Source of the DNA: Thermoanaerobacteraceae bacterium
GTDB lineage: Bacteria; Bacillota; JADQBR01
Assembly: GCA_017656305.1 (NCBI GenBank)
Contig: JACDOG010000002.1
Coordinates: 166,121-230,120, forward strand
Reading direction: 5' to 3'
DNA length: 64,000 nucleotides
The notes under the pieces are model-generated. The model had not been told where the DNA came from, searched no databases, and was given only the letters and a program-made list of their open reading frames with translations. Position 1 is the stretch's first letter. Each line of letters starts with the position of its first letter. Shown here piece after piece: positions 40,240-51,770 of the stretch. Position numbers and translations under genes: made by a program.

Positions 40240-42252
40240 ATGTTTGACAGGATTATGAAAAGGGATGGCAGGATAGTAGATTTTGATGAAGGGAAGATTA
40301 CCGATGCCATCTTTAAAGCGGCCAAGGCAGTTGGTGGCGAAGACCGGGAACTGGCCATGGAGCTAACCTTAAAAGTACTCAAACTTTTGAAACAAAAGTT
40401 TAACGGGGATATTTTTACGGTGGAAGATGTTCAGGACGCAGTGGAAAAGGTGCTGATTGAAGAGGGACATGCCAAAACTGCCAAGGCTTATATTCTTTAC
40501 CGGGACAAGCGTACCCGCATCAGGGATGCCAAGTCCGAATTAATGGACGCCGTGGAGGAAATTTTACGGGAAACCAGCAGGGAAAACGCCAACATCAGTA
40601 ACTCTCCATCGGCTAAAATGCTGCAGATAGCCAGTGCTGCCAGCAAGACCTATTATCTCAGCCGCTTGATACCGGAAGAATTTTCTTCTGCCCATATACG
40701 TGGCGATATACATATTCACGATTTGGACTTTTACGGTAAGACACTGACCTGTGTGCAAATTCCTCTGGGCGAGCTGCTGAGAAACGGGTTTAACAACGGG
40801 CACGGCTACATTCGCCCGCCGAAGCGCCCGTCATCGGCTACGGCATTGGCGGCCATTATTTTGCAAAGCTCGCAGAATGACATGCACGGTGGCCAGTCCT
40901 TCCCGTATTTTGACCGGGATATGGCACCGTTTGTAGCCGATGCTACTGAGGATGAGACTTACCAGGCTATGGAAGCACTGATTTATAATTTAAACTCCAT
41001 GCACAGTCGGGCAGGGGCCCAGGTTCCGTTCAGCAGCATCAACTTGGGTTGTGATACCTCGGAAGCAGGACGTAAGGTCACCAGGAACTTGCTGCTGGCA
41101 TATGAAAGGGGTTTGGGTCGCGGGGAAAACCCCATATTTCCCAACATAATCTTTAGATTGAAAAAGGGAGTAAACTTTGACAAGGGTGACCCCAATTATG
41201 ACCTGTTCCAGTTAGCCATCAGGGTTGCTTCCAAGAGGATGAATCCTACTTTCAGTTTTATGGACTCTTCATTCAACAGTCCTTACGGCGACCAGGCAAG
41301 TTATATGGGCTGCCGCACGCGGGTACAGTCCAACCTGGTTGGACCGGAAATTGCTGAAAAGAGAGGAAATTTGTCCTTTACCTCCATCAACCTGCCGCGG
41401 CTAGCTATCAAGGCGAAAGGGAATATCGACAAGTTTTACCAGGGTCTAGATAAAATGATTGACCTGGCTGTACGTCAGCTTTACCAGCGGTACCGGGTAC
41501 AGGCCAATTTAAGGGTGAAGGACATGCCTTTCCTGATGGGGCAAAATCTGTACCTGGATTCGGAAAATTTAGGTCCCGAAGATACCATCGAACCGGCTAT
41601 TAAGCACGGTACTTTATCCGTCGGATTTATCGGCCTGGCAGAAACTCTGACCAGTCTCATAGGAGAGCATCACGGTCAGTCTGATGAGGCGCAAAAATTG
41701 GGTCTGGAAATTGTCAAACACATGCGCCAGCGGGTGGATGAAGCGGCAGAAAGCTACCAGTTGAACTACAGCCTGCTGGCCACGCCGGCTGAAGGACTGT
41801 CGGGGCGGTTTGTTGCGATTGACAGGGAAGAGTACGGTGTGATTCCGGGGGTAACGGATAAGGAGTACTATACCAATTCATTCCATATTCCAGTTTCCTT
41901 CCCCATAAGCATGTACGACAAGGTTGCCAAAGAGGGGCCTTATCACAAGTATACCACCGCGGGACATATCAGCTATGTGGAAATGGAAGCGCCGCCCGTG
42001 CACAACCCGGAAGCAGTGGAGTCAATTATCAGGCACATGGCTGCCTGTGATATGGGTTATGCCGGCATCAATTTCCCCATCGATTTCTGTATGGGCTGCA
42101 ATCATCTTGGTGTTATTAATGAAGATAATTGCCCGATGTGCGGTTCCTCGGCCATCAAGCGTGTCAGACGCATCACCGGATATCTCAGCGTTGACGAAAA
42201 CTTTAACGATGCCAAACGTGCTGAACTGCGCGATAGAGTGGTACACGTCTAG
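40240..42252 (+). CDS. nrdD: Anaerobic ribonucleoside-triphosphate reductase NrdD
   Basis: 670-residue class III reductase that makes dNTPs without oxygen. N-terminal ATP cone (RIMKRDGRIVDFDEGKI, residues 1-90), then the ten-stranded barrel. The C-terminus has a Cys4 zinc site (CMGCNHLG and CPMCGSS) and RITGYLSV, whose Gly carries the radical. ATG 40240 behind GGGAGGGG. Needs the NrdG activase encoded 12 bases downstream. Confidence 0.96.
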   Translation: MFDRIMKRDGRIVDFDEGKITDAIFKAAKAVGGEDRELAMELTLKVLKLLKQKFNGDIFTVEDVQDAVEKVLIEEGHAKTAKAYILYRDKRTRIRDAKSELMDAVEEILRETSRENANISNSPSAKMLQIASAASKTYYLSRLIPEEFSSAHIRGDIHIHDLDFYGKTLTCVQIPLGELLRNGFNNGHGYIRPPKRPSSATALAAIILQSSQNDMHGGQSFPYFDRDMAPFVADATEDETYQAMEALIYNLNSMHSRAGAQVPFSSINLGCDTSEAGRKVTRNLLLAYERGLGRGENPIFPNIIFRLKKGVNFDKGDPNYDLFQLAIRVASKRMNPTFSFMDSSFNSPYGDQASYMGCRTRVQSNLVGPEIAEKRGNLSFTSINLPRLAIKAKGNIDKFYQGLDKMIDLAVRQLYQRYRVQANLRVKDMPFLMGQNLYLDSENLGPEDTIEPAIKHGTLSVGFIGLAETLTSLIGEHHGQSDEAQKLGLEIVKHMRQRVDEAAESYQLNYSLLATPAEGLSGRFVAIDREEYGVIPGVTDKEYYTNSFHIPVSFPISMYDKVAKEGPYHKYTTAGHISYVEMEAPPVHNPEAVESIIRHMAACDMGYAGINFPIDFCMGCNHLGVINEDNCPMCGSSAIKRVRRITGYLSVDENFNDAKRAELRDRVVHV

Positions 42253-42264
42253 GGGGCTTTGCCG

Positions 42265-42771
42265 GTGGAAGTCAGAATAGCAGGAGTGGTACGTGAAAGT
42301 GTGGTGGACGGCCCGGGCATCAGGTTGGTTATTTTTGCCCAAGGCTGTCCTCACCGGTGTCCTGACTGTCATAACCCCGAGACCCATGACCCGGATGGTG
42401 GCAAACTGGAAACCGTTGATAACCTGCTGGAAATGGTGAAGTCCACCTTATTAATCAAGGGTGTCACTTTCTCCGGCGGCGAACCTTTTTATCAGGCCAA
42501 GGCTTTTGCCGCTTTAGGTGAACGAATCAAGGCTCTGGGCAAGGGATATGATATCGTTACGTATACCGGTTATATCTTTGAGGAACTGCTGGCACTAAGC
42601 GAGATTAACGAGGATTATTACCGGCTGCTGCAGGTTACTGACCTGCTGGTGGATGGGCCCTTTATCAGGGAAGAAAAGGATTTAAGCCTGGCGTTTCGCG
42701 GGTCACGCAACCAGAGACTGATAGACGTTTCCAAGTCTTTACAGGCAGGAAAGGCAGTACTTATCTCCTGA
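42265..42771 (+). CDS. nrdG: Anaerobic RNR activating protein NrdG
   Basis: 168-residue radical-SAM enzyme that installs the glycyl radical on NrdD. Cluster motif CPHRCPDCHNP (C-x3-C-x2-C), VVDGPGIRLVIFAQG before it and VTFSGGEPF after. GTG 42265 lies 8 bases from AGGGGG; TTG 42259 is an alternative. Last gene of the nrd operon, with a terminator reaching into its end. Confidence 0.94.
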   Translation: MEVRIAGVVRESVVDGPGIRLVIFAQGCPHRCPDCHNPETHDPDGGKLETVDNLLEMVKSTLLIKGVTFSGGEPFYQAKAFAALGERIKALGKGYDIVTYTGYIFEELLALSEINEDYYRLLQVTDLLVDGPFIREEKDLSLAFRGSRNQRLIDVSKSLQAGKAVLIS

Positions 42772-42788
42772 TGAGTACTGTCTTTTTT
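42753..42788 (+). terminator. Intrinsic terminator overlapping the nrdG end
   Basis: GGCAGTACT (42753-42761) and AGTACTGTC (42774-42782), then TTTTTT. The nrdG stop codon lies in the loop. Confidence 0.8.
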
Positions 42789-42878
42789 CTGCTGCCAATT
42801 CTAAATATTCTGTAATTTAGGACTAAAGTCACTGTATTTTGGGACATTTGTCCTGTGTTATTTTGTTACGGCACAAGA

Positions 42879-43030
42879 TATAATGTAATAGGAATTGAGG
42901 AACCCAAAGGCAAAGCCCTGTGAGGCTTCAGGCCTGGAGAGTAAGCTGGAGGACATAACCCCAGGAGGTAGGATCCCCGAGCTTAATTTCGCTAACAAAG
43001 GCTGCGTCCATGGCGTAGCTATTTATTTTT
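42879..43030 (+). ncRNA. Candidate small structured RNA with own promoter and terminator
   Basis: A TATAAT at 42879-42884 opens a stretch with no reading frame. It contains hairpin AAGCC/GGCUU (42913-42928), a longer CCUGG/CCAGG helix (42933-42965) and a terminator, GCTGCG/CGTAGC (43001-43019) followed by ATTTATTTTTTTT. The RNA would be about 130 bases. Several exposed GGA motifs (GAGGAAC, TGGAGGAC, AGGAGGTAGGAT) resemble CsrA targets. Nothing on the + strand follows for 2 kb, so it is not an ordinary leader. No known RNA family was recognised, and a clear -35 is lacking. Confidence 0.4.
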
Positions 43031-43681
43031 TTTACTGGAAAGATTACTGACAAACAGGACTGCTTCGGCCCGGTTTTTCAGGTTCAATTTGCGGTAAATA
43101 TTACTGACATAGTTGCGGACGGTTTTTTCGCTTAAGTAAAGTTGCTCTGCAATTTCACGGTTGGTTTTGGCCTCGGCCAACAGGTGTAAAACCTTTTTTT
43201 CCTGGTCTGTCAGCTGGTCCAGCCCGCCGGCTGAGTTTTCCTTTGTCTTGGCTATGGATTTAAACTTTGCTAGTACCCTGGTTGTTACTTCCGAGTCTAG
43301 CAGTGATTCTCCTTGAGCTACCTTACGGATGGAGGTAACCAGGTCATCGCTCCAAATCTTTTTCAGCACGTACCCTTCAGCACCGGCCATGATTGACCCG
43401 AACAGAGCTTCATCATCGGCAAAGGAAGTCAGCATCACCACTTTTATATCGGGATTATCCTGGCGAATCTGCCGGCAGGCATCAATGCCCGTTCCGTCAG
43501 GCAGGCGGACGTCCATAATGATGATATCGGGAGCCAGTGTTTTTGCCTTGGAAATAGCTTCCGCTACGGTTCCGGCTTCGCCCACCACCTGGAAGAAGTC
43601 CGAATGACTGTCAAACAATGTTTTCAGGCCCAGACGCACCACCTGGTGGTCATCCACTATTAACAAACGACTTACTGTCAC
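43019..43681 (-). CDS. NarL/LuxR-family response regulator
   Basis: 220 residues on the minus strand. Receiver domain with LLIVDDHQVVRLGL and phospho-acceptor IIMDVRLPDGTG (about Asp57), switch residue in VVMLTSFAD, then a LuxR helix-turn-helix (LTDQEKKVLHLLAEAKTNREIAEQL, SEKTVRNYVSNIYRKL). Its start overlaps the end of the partner kinase by 32 bases, so they are one unit. It converges with nrdG. The target genes are unknown. Confidence 0.93.
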   Translation of the reverse strand: MTVSRLLIVDDHQVVRLGLKTLFDSHSDFFQVVGEAGTVAEAISKAKTLAPDIIIMDVRLPDGTGIDACRQIRQDNPDIKVVMLTSFADDEALFGSIMAGAEGYVLKKIWSDDLVTSIRKVAQGESLLDSEVTTRVLAKFKSIAKTKENSAGGLDQLTDQEKKVLHLLAEAKTNREIAEQLYLSEKTVRNYVSNIYRKLNLKNRAEAVLFVSNLSSKKNK

Positions 43682-45092
43682 TTTCCTTACCTCCCCACGG
43701 GATAGTTACTTTTATTGTCGTACCCCGGTTTTTCTTGCTATCGATTTTCAAAGTACCTCCCAGTTGGTCTGCCCGTTCTTTAATGTTTTTCAGCCCCCGT
43801 TGCATGTTGCTTATTTTTGCTTGAGGCTGCATACCGATGCCGTCATCGACAATGGAAAAGACTAGCTGCTCGGGTCGGGCATCAAAGATTAATTTAAGCT
43901 CGGAAGCCCGGGCATGTTTTGCCGCGTTGGACAGTGTCTCCTGGACGATGTGATAAATATTGTCAATCTGGTAGGGAGTAAGCCGGTGTTCGTAATCTCC
44001 CCGCCAAACCACGTTTACTGCCAGGTTCGTGTGCGAAGCCAAATCCTGGCTGAGAGCGCTGATGGCCTCGCGTAAGGTGTATGTATGCTTTTCTACCGGG
44101 CTCAGGCCCTGGATATACTGCCTGATAGCTTCAATGGTTTCTTGAAGTTTTTCCATCACCGGCTTTACCTGGGAATTTATTTGTGCTGTGGTCAAATTGG
44201 GTTTTTTGAGAGTGGTTTCCAGGCTGAGGCCAATACCGTATAATGATTGGATGACGCCGTCATGCAGGTCTCTACTGATACGGTTTCGTTCTTCCAGAAT
44301 GGCCTGAGTGATCCTGGCCAGTTCCAGTTTTTTGTTGTTCTCAAAATTAAATATCTGCATAATTCTCAGTATGAAGAAAGCCATACCGATGCCGCAGACG
44401 GCGCGAAAAAACTGCAATAACGGGGGGTCGGTAAAAATGGGGGTATTGGTAGTAATACCTACCAATAATTTATTCCAGCTGGGCAGCAGTGCACCGGCGG
44501 AGATGGCGTAACAGAAGAATGACCCGGTTGCCCCGTAAACGGCGTAGAAAAGTTTGGAAATGTTCAGTTTGGCAAAATCCTTGATTTGCGTGACCAGTGC
44601 CAGGGATACTAATATTGCACCGGGAAAGGCTAATATAATGTATAACCACATTCTTCCTTCATACAGCCACAATTGCTGTCCCCGCGGGTAAGACAGCAGA
44701 AAAATAACAACCCACAGCAGGAATATGACTGGAGCGGTGTATCGTAAGCGATAATAGCGCTTAAAAGTGCTTACCAATAGTTCTACCCCGAACAGGTAGA
44801 GGAAAATAAAGGAGACCGCAGAAATGATAACGGAAAACAAGTGCCCCAAAAACAGGGTTTCCTGCGGTAAGTTGTCAAAAACAAATAACAGGAAAAAATT
44901 CAGCCACTTGGTTATGCCAAAAAATAACCCGAACAGAGACAGCAGCCAGACGGAGGAAACTATCTTCAGGCTACTACTTTGATAATACTGTAAGTACTGT
45001 AATAAAATAACAAAACCCATTAAAAAAAAGATAAGGCCGCCTAAAAAGTCAATACAGGGCAGGTAATATTTTGAAAAGATGTTTTCAAACAT
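43650..45092 (-). CDS. Membrane sensor histidine kinase, NarX/DesK (HisKA_3) type
   Basis: 480 residues on the minus strand. About seven to eight membrane helices in the first 260 residues form a sensor with almost no outer domain, then the HisKA_3 dimer with RNRISRDLHDGVIQSLYGIG (phospho-His) and the ATPase domain (VQETLSNAAKHARA, DDGIGMQ, GGTLKIDS). Partner of the adjacent response regulator. ATG 45092 is chosen with AGGATGG upstream; ATG 45101 lies inside that site. A membrane-embedded signal such as lipid state or redox is only a guess. Confidence 0.9.
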   Translation of the reverse strand: MFENIFSKYYLPCIDFLGGLIFFLMGFVILLQYLQYYQSSSLKIVSSVWLLSLFGLFFGITKWLNFFLLFVFDNLPQETLFLGHLFSVIISAVSFIFLYLFGVELLVSTFKRYYRLRYTAPVIFLLWVVIFLLSYPRGQQLWLYEGRMWLYIILAFPGAILVSLALVTQIKDFAKLNISKLFYAVYGATGSFFCYAISAGALLPSWNKLLVGITTNTPIFTDPPLLQFFRAVCGIGMAFFILRIMQIFNFENNKKLELARITQAILEERNRISRDLHDGVIQSLYGIGLSLETTLKKPNLTTAQINSQVKPVMEKLQETIEAIRQYIQGLSPVEKHTYTLREAISALSQDLASHTNLAVNVVWRGDYEHRLTPYQIDNIYHIVQETLSNAAKHARASELKLIFDARPEQLVFSIVDDGIGMQPQAKISNMQRGLKNIKERADQLGGTLKIDSKKNRGTTIKVTIPWGGKESDSKSFVNSG

Positions 45093-45199
45093 AATAACCA
45101 TCCTAAAAATTGTTTCCGGTTTGCCTGGTTGTATTTTCCTTAAATTTACTTAAATATCAACAGTACTTTCCGTCAAGTCTGTTTAGGAGGGATGATGTA

Positions 45200-51510: not shown

Positions 51511-51770
51511 TGACAGGGAAACAGCCAAATATGGAAAAAAGCAATGAAAGAGACGAGTACCCGGCATCACTGTTTTTAGCGAGTTCGGGATGGTGGGAGC
51601 CGAGCACATATGCCAGGGGAAAATCACTCTGGAGCTGGACCCTGAAATAGTGATAAAGTAGGGGTTTTCGGTTGGCACCGTTATCAGCCTGCAAGCGACA
51701 GGTATATTACCTGTAATTAAGGTGGTACCGCGGGAATCTCTCGTCCTTTACGACGGGAGTTTTTTATTTA
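51511..51770 (+). promoter_or_regulatory. T-box riboswitch before ileS
   Basis: Leader that reads the charge of tRNA-Ile. Seen: AGTA-type stem I (GACGAGTACC at 51553-51562), the conserved GGATGGTGGGAGCCGAG block, GGGGAAAATCACTCTGGAGC, and the T-box proper AAGGTGGTACCGCGGGA (51719-51735), followed by terminator CTCTCGTC/GACGGGAG with T run (51738-51766). Uncharged tRNA pairs with the T-box and favours antitermination. The isoleucine specifier triplet was not assigned with confidence; ATC in AAAATCAC is one candidate. Confidence 0.9.

Follow-up and report, generated by a model that had tools for sequence, protein, structure and literature searches.

The window, a stretch of 64,000 nucleotides, contains a short intergenic region, lying between an anaerobic ribonucleotide reductase gene and a convergent two-component system, that an earlier note had singled out as the candidate source of a free, orphan small RNA. 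The genes and predicted elements of this locus, with G001 and G002 denoting two other genomes of the same family, are as follows:

42259..42771, plus strand: upstream neighbour, placed by synteny, which we take to be nrdG (anaerobic ribonucleotide reductase activase), a name based on its sequence and on the title of the earlier note
42841..42853, plus strand: palindrome GGGACATTTGTCC, matched exactly, retained in G001 and G002 and enriched near homologues of the response regulator
42879..42884, plus strand: -10 box TATAAT, at a similar spacing from the palindrome in G001 and G002
42891..43032, plus strand: predicted non-coding transcript of about 142 nt, its start placed from the -10 box and its end from the U-run
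42891..42980, plus strand: conserved 5' part of the RNA, homologous to a small-protein leader in G001 and G002 by three-way identity and by comparison with model R1
43000..43033, plus strand: intrinsic terminator (hairpin 43000-43020 and U-run), recognized from sequence and folding; this 3' part is not conserved
43019..43681, minus strand: convergent NarL/FixJ-type response regulator (RR) gene, with Response_reg and GerE domains
43650..45101, minus strand: sensor histidine kinase (HK) gene adjoining the RR gene, with HisKA_3 and HATPase_c domains and a hydrophobic N-terminus

The -10 box claimed for this region is present, and the transcript predicted from it ends, as had also been claimed, at a proper terminator with no sense gene after it: a 9-bp hairpin (-11.6 kcal/mol) is followed by ATTTATTTTTTTT, and the next gene is the convergent RR gene, the stop codon of which (43019-43021) shares the final bases of the hairpin. 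One long open frame in the RNA begins with a TTG at 42895 and runs through the terminator; it is without a Shine-Dalgarno sequence and, compared by eye, bears no likeness to the small protein of the relatives described below, and no start codon preceded by a Shine-Dalgarno sequence was found in 42891-43045. The "at least two helices" of the earlier note are indeed predicted, but stand as a prediction only because folding of the whole RNA (-43.9 kcal/mol) is within the range of chance (z = -1.11, with 28 of 200 shuffles as stable), and whole-RNA stability was accordingly set aside as uninformative on structure. The Rfam search that had been proposed matched no known class, leader classes included: no family in Rfam 15 reached its gathering score for the RNA, a permissive scan of 42772-43060 returned best E-values of 2.8 and 7.2, and the loci of the relatives (L120 and L121) yielded nothing near a gathering score, ruling out a known RNA class. 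The only family recovered from the entire window was a T-box leader (RF00230, 139.3 bits) at 51535-51751.

With the final T of TATAAT numbered -7, the centre of the palindrome falls at about -43.5. There is no recognizable -35 element, the hexamer 17 nt upstream of the -10 box being TGTTAT, unlike TTGACA, and a sigma-70 scan of 42000-44000 did not list the TATAAT site; by inspection, a good -10 box with no -35 element points to an activator-type promoter. The box GGACANNTGTCC was matched 14 times in 12 of 80 loci bearing RR homologues (0.5 Mb), whereas 29 permuted cores averaged 0.59 matches in the same loci and never exceeded 4. Looser patterns place the box past the RR 3' end in most box-bearing loci and, in others, about 2.1-2.4 kb before that end, ahead of the kinase gene. 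Boxes near RR homologues are also found in Chloroflexi and other phyla, and because of this enrichment beside homologues in other phyla the palindrome is probably the operator of the RR itself. With such a box in promoter position, we consider it likely that the RNA is under the control of the RR, whose best NCBIfam matches are MadR/NarL/MctR-like with scores below the cut-offs. Genome-wide, the box showed no enrichment over a reversed-pattern control in eight genomes; the window genome has two exact sites, namely the RNA promoter and one inside an ORF that appears Fur-like by eye, the latter being taken as a chance occurrence. In the portions of the literature accessible to a search with four spellings of the palindrome, matches were confined to apparently unrelated papers.

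At six loci (L044, L052, L101, L146, L153 and L154) boxes are situated between NarL-type RR/kinase genes and genes for cytochrome, 4Fe-4S or Rieske-like proteins, which suggests a respiratory regulon across phyla. Six box-adjacent proteins comprise four multihaem cytochromes, one 4Fe-4S protein and one Rieske protein; as they were picked by eye, "six of six" is not a rate. We infer that the two-component system is respiratory.

The best RR matches are those of G001 and G002, which are 77% and 73% identical to it in the matched portion. The gene order nrdD-nrdG, followed by the box, promoter and RNA and then by the convergent RR and HK genes, is common to the window, G001 and G002, with the G001 locus also carried by contig L038, itself recovered as an RR match; the palindrome, the -10 box and the RNA align across all three. 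Downstream of the RNA, G001 and G002 have AAGGAGG and then a 49-aa ORF (counted from a conserved MDV-type start; 52 aa from the first start codon called), which ends directly at the RR 3' end.

A search of 398 genomes of the phylum with the G002 protein gave five matches, and an HMM built from those five recovered 8 of the 398 genomes at E 0.01. One match (G234) was dropped, as it lies inside a 792-aa frame and not in a small ORF, and a weak one (G076, E 0.005) was kept because it adjoins an RR homologue; the seven small-protein genomes counted are G001, G002, G043, G083, G111, G284 and G076. Their proteins (at L132, L131, L135, L134, L133, L140 and L142, respectively) are 48-54 aa long, share the pattern MDV..M.G.A..AE..G and reach a best 19-residue Kyte-Doolittle mean of 2.02-2.36, and the two members tested had no match above chance in Pfam or NCBIfam. 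In all seven genomes the small ORF is positioned tail-to-tail with a NarL-type RR. The HMM found no member of the family in the window genome, which is 99.95% complete, and the Shine-Dalgarno sequence and small ORF downstream of the leader are missing there.

The small-protein gene is preceded in each of the seven genomes by a leader of about 120-170 nt, upstream of which six have a GGAC-N4-GTC(C)-like palindrome; in the exception, G284, its place is taken by ACAAATGTCC, which reads GGACATTTGT on the opposite strand, and there is a further GGACA. These leaders repeat GAG-based modules, the last of which, GAGTC..GRCC, abuts the Shine-Dalgarno sequence. Instances of GAGYC-N3-7-GRCC number 15 in eight RNAs (none of them in the window RNA) versus 0.34 in shuffles, an enrichment that is post hoc because it was counted on the sequences in which the module was found. 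The pattern of the Shine-Dalgarno-proximal module occurs at six places in the 398 genomes, five of which are small-protein leaders and the sixth of which (G263) is within a gene. As to the covariation with relatives that the earlier note had recommended examining, the first 90 nt are conserved, but pairing within the modules is unsupported: the 17 instances comprise U-A (6), U-G (5), C-G (5) and C-A (1), which is not significant (Fisher p 0.30). RNAalifold on three sequences predicted 20 pairs, four with two-sided change, with a weak covariation term (+0.23).

Model R1, built solely from the RNAs of the window, G001 and G002, scored the distant leaders of G111, G284, G083 and G043 at 17.9, 17.7, 15.2 and 12.7 bits, in each case at the correct place and on the correct strand, and missed that of G076. 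Over the 80 loci (0.5 Mb), only the G001-type copy scores above the two distant leaders included, and the highest score of any unrelated match is 11.2 bits. A whole-genome scan at E 0.05 recovered one copy each in the window genome (G000), G001 and G002 together with one probable chance match, and none of the distant leaders. Based on the R1 scores, the window RNA, which occupies the same position 3' of the RR box, seems to form a single family with the distant leaders, the case being weak for G043 and not made for G076. In the searches made here this putative leader family was not found described. A direct DNA search of 61 genomes with the RNA gave the window's own copy as the only convincing match; a 41-nt match at L009 (G054:C1:21124-21164; 83%, E 2.3e-4) covers query positions 122-161, that is, the terminator and RR-end region. 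In G284, a further locus (L143 1500-1790, G284:C29:13269) displays a GGGACATTTGTCCC box followed by repeat-rich GAGCC/GGCCAA sequence, away from the RR and with no obvious small ORF; it was considered as a free paralogue of the RNA and rejected, its R1 score of just 10.3 bits being within the chance range.

Comparison of the three family members indicates what changed in the window lineage. In the 5' 90 nt of the RNA, 44 positions are identical in the window, G001 and G002, versus 21.8 +- 4.5 (maximum 33) in 150 shuffles of the window RNA, whereas the last 45 nt, which include the terminator, have 16 identical positions versus 14.9 in shuffles, not above chance. Identity at fourfold sites of the RR and nrdG genes is about 28-36%, close to saturation, and the three RR proteins differ from one another to much the same degree (0.74, 0.72 and 0.71). 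In the first alignment the window RNA has 30 lineage-specific changes, against 15 and 17 in the relatives, and two other alignments gave 30 and 31 against 14-23. This roughly twofold excess, together with the other conservation counts, is therefore read to mean that the ORF and the 3' leader disappeared, as judged from one lineage in a family of three genomes, that the 5' leader was long constrained and that this constraint is now partly relaxed; the terminator occupies the former position of the 3' leader.

We accordingly regard descent of the window RNA from such a leader as very probable, and on balance favor the fuller reading that the feature derives from a conserved leader RNA belonging to a NarL-type two-component system and has lost the ORF. 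The claim of a free orphan RNA is thereby divided: a terminated RNA of about 140 nt is predicted from the sequence, but it would not be an orphan, having a common ancestry with the small-protein leader. In mechanistic terms, the phosphorylated neighbouring RR would bind the palindrome at -43.5 and recruit RNA polymerase. In the relatives, the transcript would pass through the 120-170-nt leader of GAG..GRCC modules into the gene for the membrane protein of about 50 aa, translation of which the leader probably gates, and this protein in turn probably feeds back on the kinase or on a respiratory complex. In the window, with the 3' leader and the ORF gone, the RNA would stop at its own terminator, retaining the 5' part of the leader. 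Less easily reconciled with derivation from the leader are the lack of any strict GAGYC-N3-7-GRCC module in the window copy and the near doubling of its lineage-specific changes, the latter being as expected of relaxed constraint. Whether the RNA is still functional today is close to an even question, leaning slightly toward the negative, and a role in titrating a factor that binds the leader appears doubtful. TRAP and PyrR were considered as putative binding proteins.

At least as likely as such titration, although itself on the unlikely side, is that the locus is a decaying relic, in which what was left after deletion of the ORF, namely the promoter and leader, is still transcribed but no longer serves any function. 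The doubled rate of change, the chance-level identity of the last 45 nt, the loss of strict modules and the missing small protein in a nearly complete genome are all consistent with decay. However, the box, the -10 element and 90 nt of the RNA are still conserved, with the RNA well above shuffles despite the near-saturation of fourfold sites, and a strong terminator is in place. Alternatively, the RNA might act in trans by base pairing, as an sRNA serving a respiratory two-component system in the way that RoxS serves ResD. Probable control by the RR, the position of RR boxes beside genes for cytochromes, Fe-S and Rieske proteins, and the C-rich stretches AACCCC and ATCCCC, which by their sequence could pair with Shine-Dalgarno sequences, would be compatible with this role; yet no Rfam family was matched and the relatives use the homologous region as an mRNA leader, which together render it rather improbable. 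The earlier note had further noticed that the terminator overlaps the end of the RR gene, and this is correct, the overlap being about 14 nt; the antisense effects that it held possible are not indicated. Antisense control exerted on the RR gene where the 3' ends overlap is highly improbable, as just the terminator tail is involved, at the 3' end of the gene, which is ordinary for convergent genes, and the small ORF of G001 and G002 does no more than adjoin the RR gene.

CsrB/RsmZ-type sRNAs are driven by UvrY/GacA, and the window RNA resembles them in that a predicted box for a NarL/FixJ-family RR precedes an untranslated RNA bearing GGA motifs in a genome encoding CsrA (G000:C2:94467-94622, 79.5 bits). 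A CsrA-sequestering sRNA activated by the adjoining NarL/FixJ-type regulator, much as GacA activates RsmZ and UvrY activates CsrB, can hence be envisaged. The repetition of GGA pointed out in the earlier note is genuine, with seven in 42891-43032 versus 3.7 expected (13 of 1000 dinucleotide shuffles reach seven); AGGA occurs four times versus 1.4 expected (41 of 1000 shuffles), the eight leaders together have 48 GGA versus 33.3 (0 of 300 shuffles), and CsrA was found in seven of the eight genomes tested. Nevertheless, only one of the seven GGA motifs in the window (42951) is common to the three family members (alignment A5, by eye), and it is predicted to be paired (unpaired probability 0.02), so that GGA motifs both conserved and exposed in hairpin loops are wanting. 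Moreover, the window RNA has no ANGGA, the conserved core is (C)URGAG with GGA and AGA alternating (by eye) and is GAG-based rather than GGA-based, G083 has the leader with no CsrA found (93% complete, 450 contigs), and the RNA of the relatives, unlike CsrB/RsmZ, is an mRNA leader. CsrA may bind, although the support for this is poor, and a sponge function seems quite improbable.

Returning to the favored derivation from a leader, certain parallels with known systems may be drawn. RoxS/RsaE of Firmicutes is, according to PMC4409812 and PMC7430163 (Table 2), a short terminated sRNA linked to respiration through the ResD two-component system; the window RNA is likewise predicted to be short and terminated and to answer to a two-component system with a probable respiratory role, but it differs in the regulator family and in matching no Rfam model. 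PMC7430163 also presents SR1 of Bacillus subtilis as a dual-function sRNA with a 39-aa protein, comparable to the RNA of the relatives in its long untranslated part and very small ORF, whereas the window copy is without such an ORF, has no Rfam match and lies under a different regulator. The small protein absent from the window genome may be likened to MgrB, which PMC2789325 and PMC8404706 describe as a 47-aa membrane inhibitor of PhoQ: the membrane protein of the relatives is probably RR-controlled and kinase-linked, an analogy in mode of action.

That this is a new Bacillota RNA family, a NarL-switched small-protein leader that gave rise to a free, titrating regulatory RNA once the ORF had been lost and a terminator acquired, is speculative and, taken in its entirety, unlikely; if true, it would show an sRNA emerging from an mRNA leader. 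The window copy can in any case be viewed as a natural experiment on the fate of a leader RNA once its gene is lost, and the likely operator of an RR subfamily across several phyla renders its regulon predictable. Of higher interest than the window feature itself is the unit in the relatives: an RR box, a repeat-bearing leader, a membrane protein of about 50 aa and a NarL-type RR and kinase constitute an uncharacterised assembly, whose RNA and protein are without matches in Rfam and in Pfam/NCBIfam, respectively. The small-protein gene and the RR are separated in both G043 and G083 by a second small ORF, the frame that follows the small-protein gene at L135 1729-1896 (G043) and L134 1736-1894 (G083) being hydrophobic and about 52-55 aa long.
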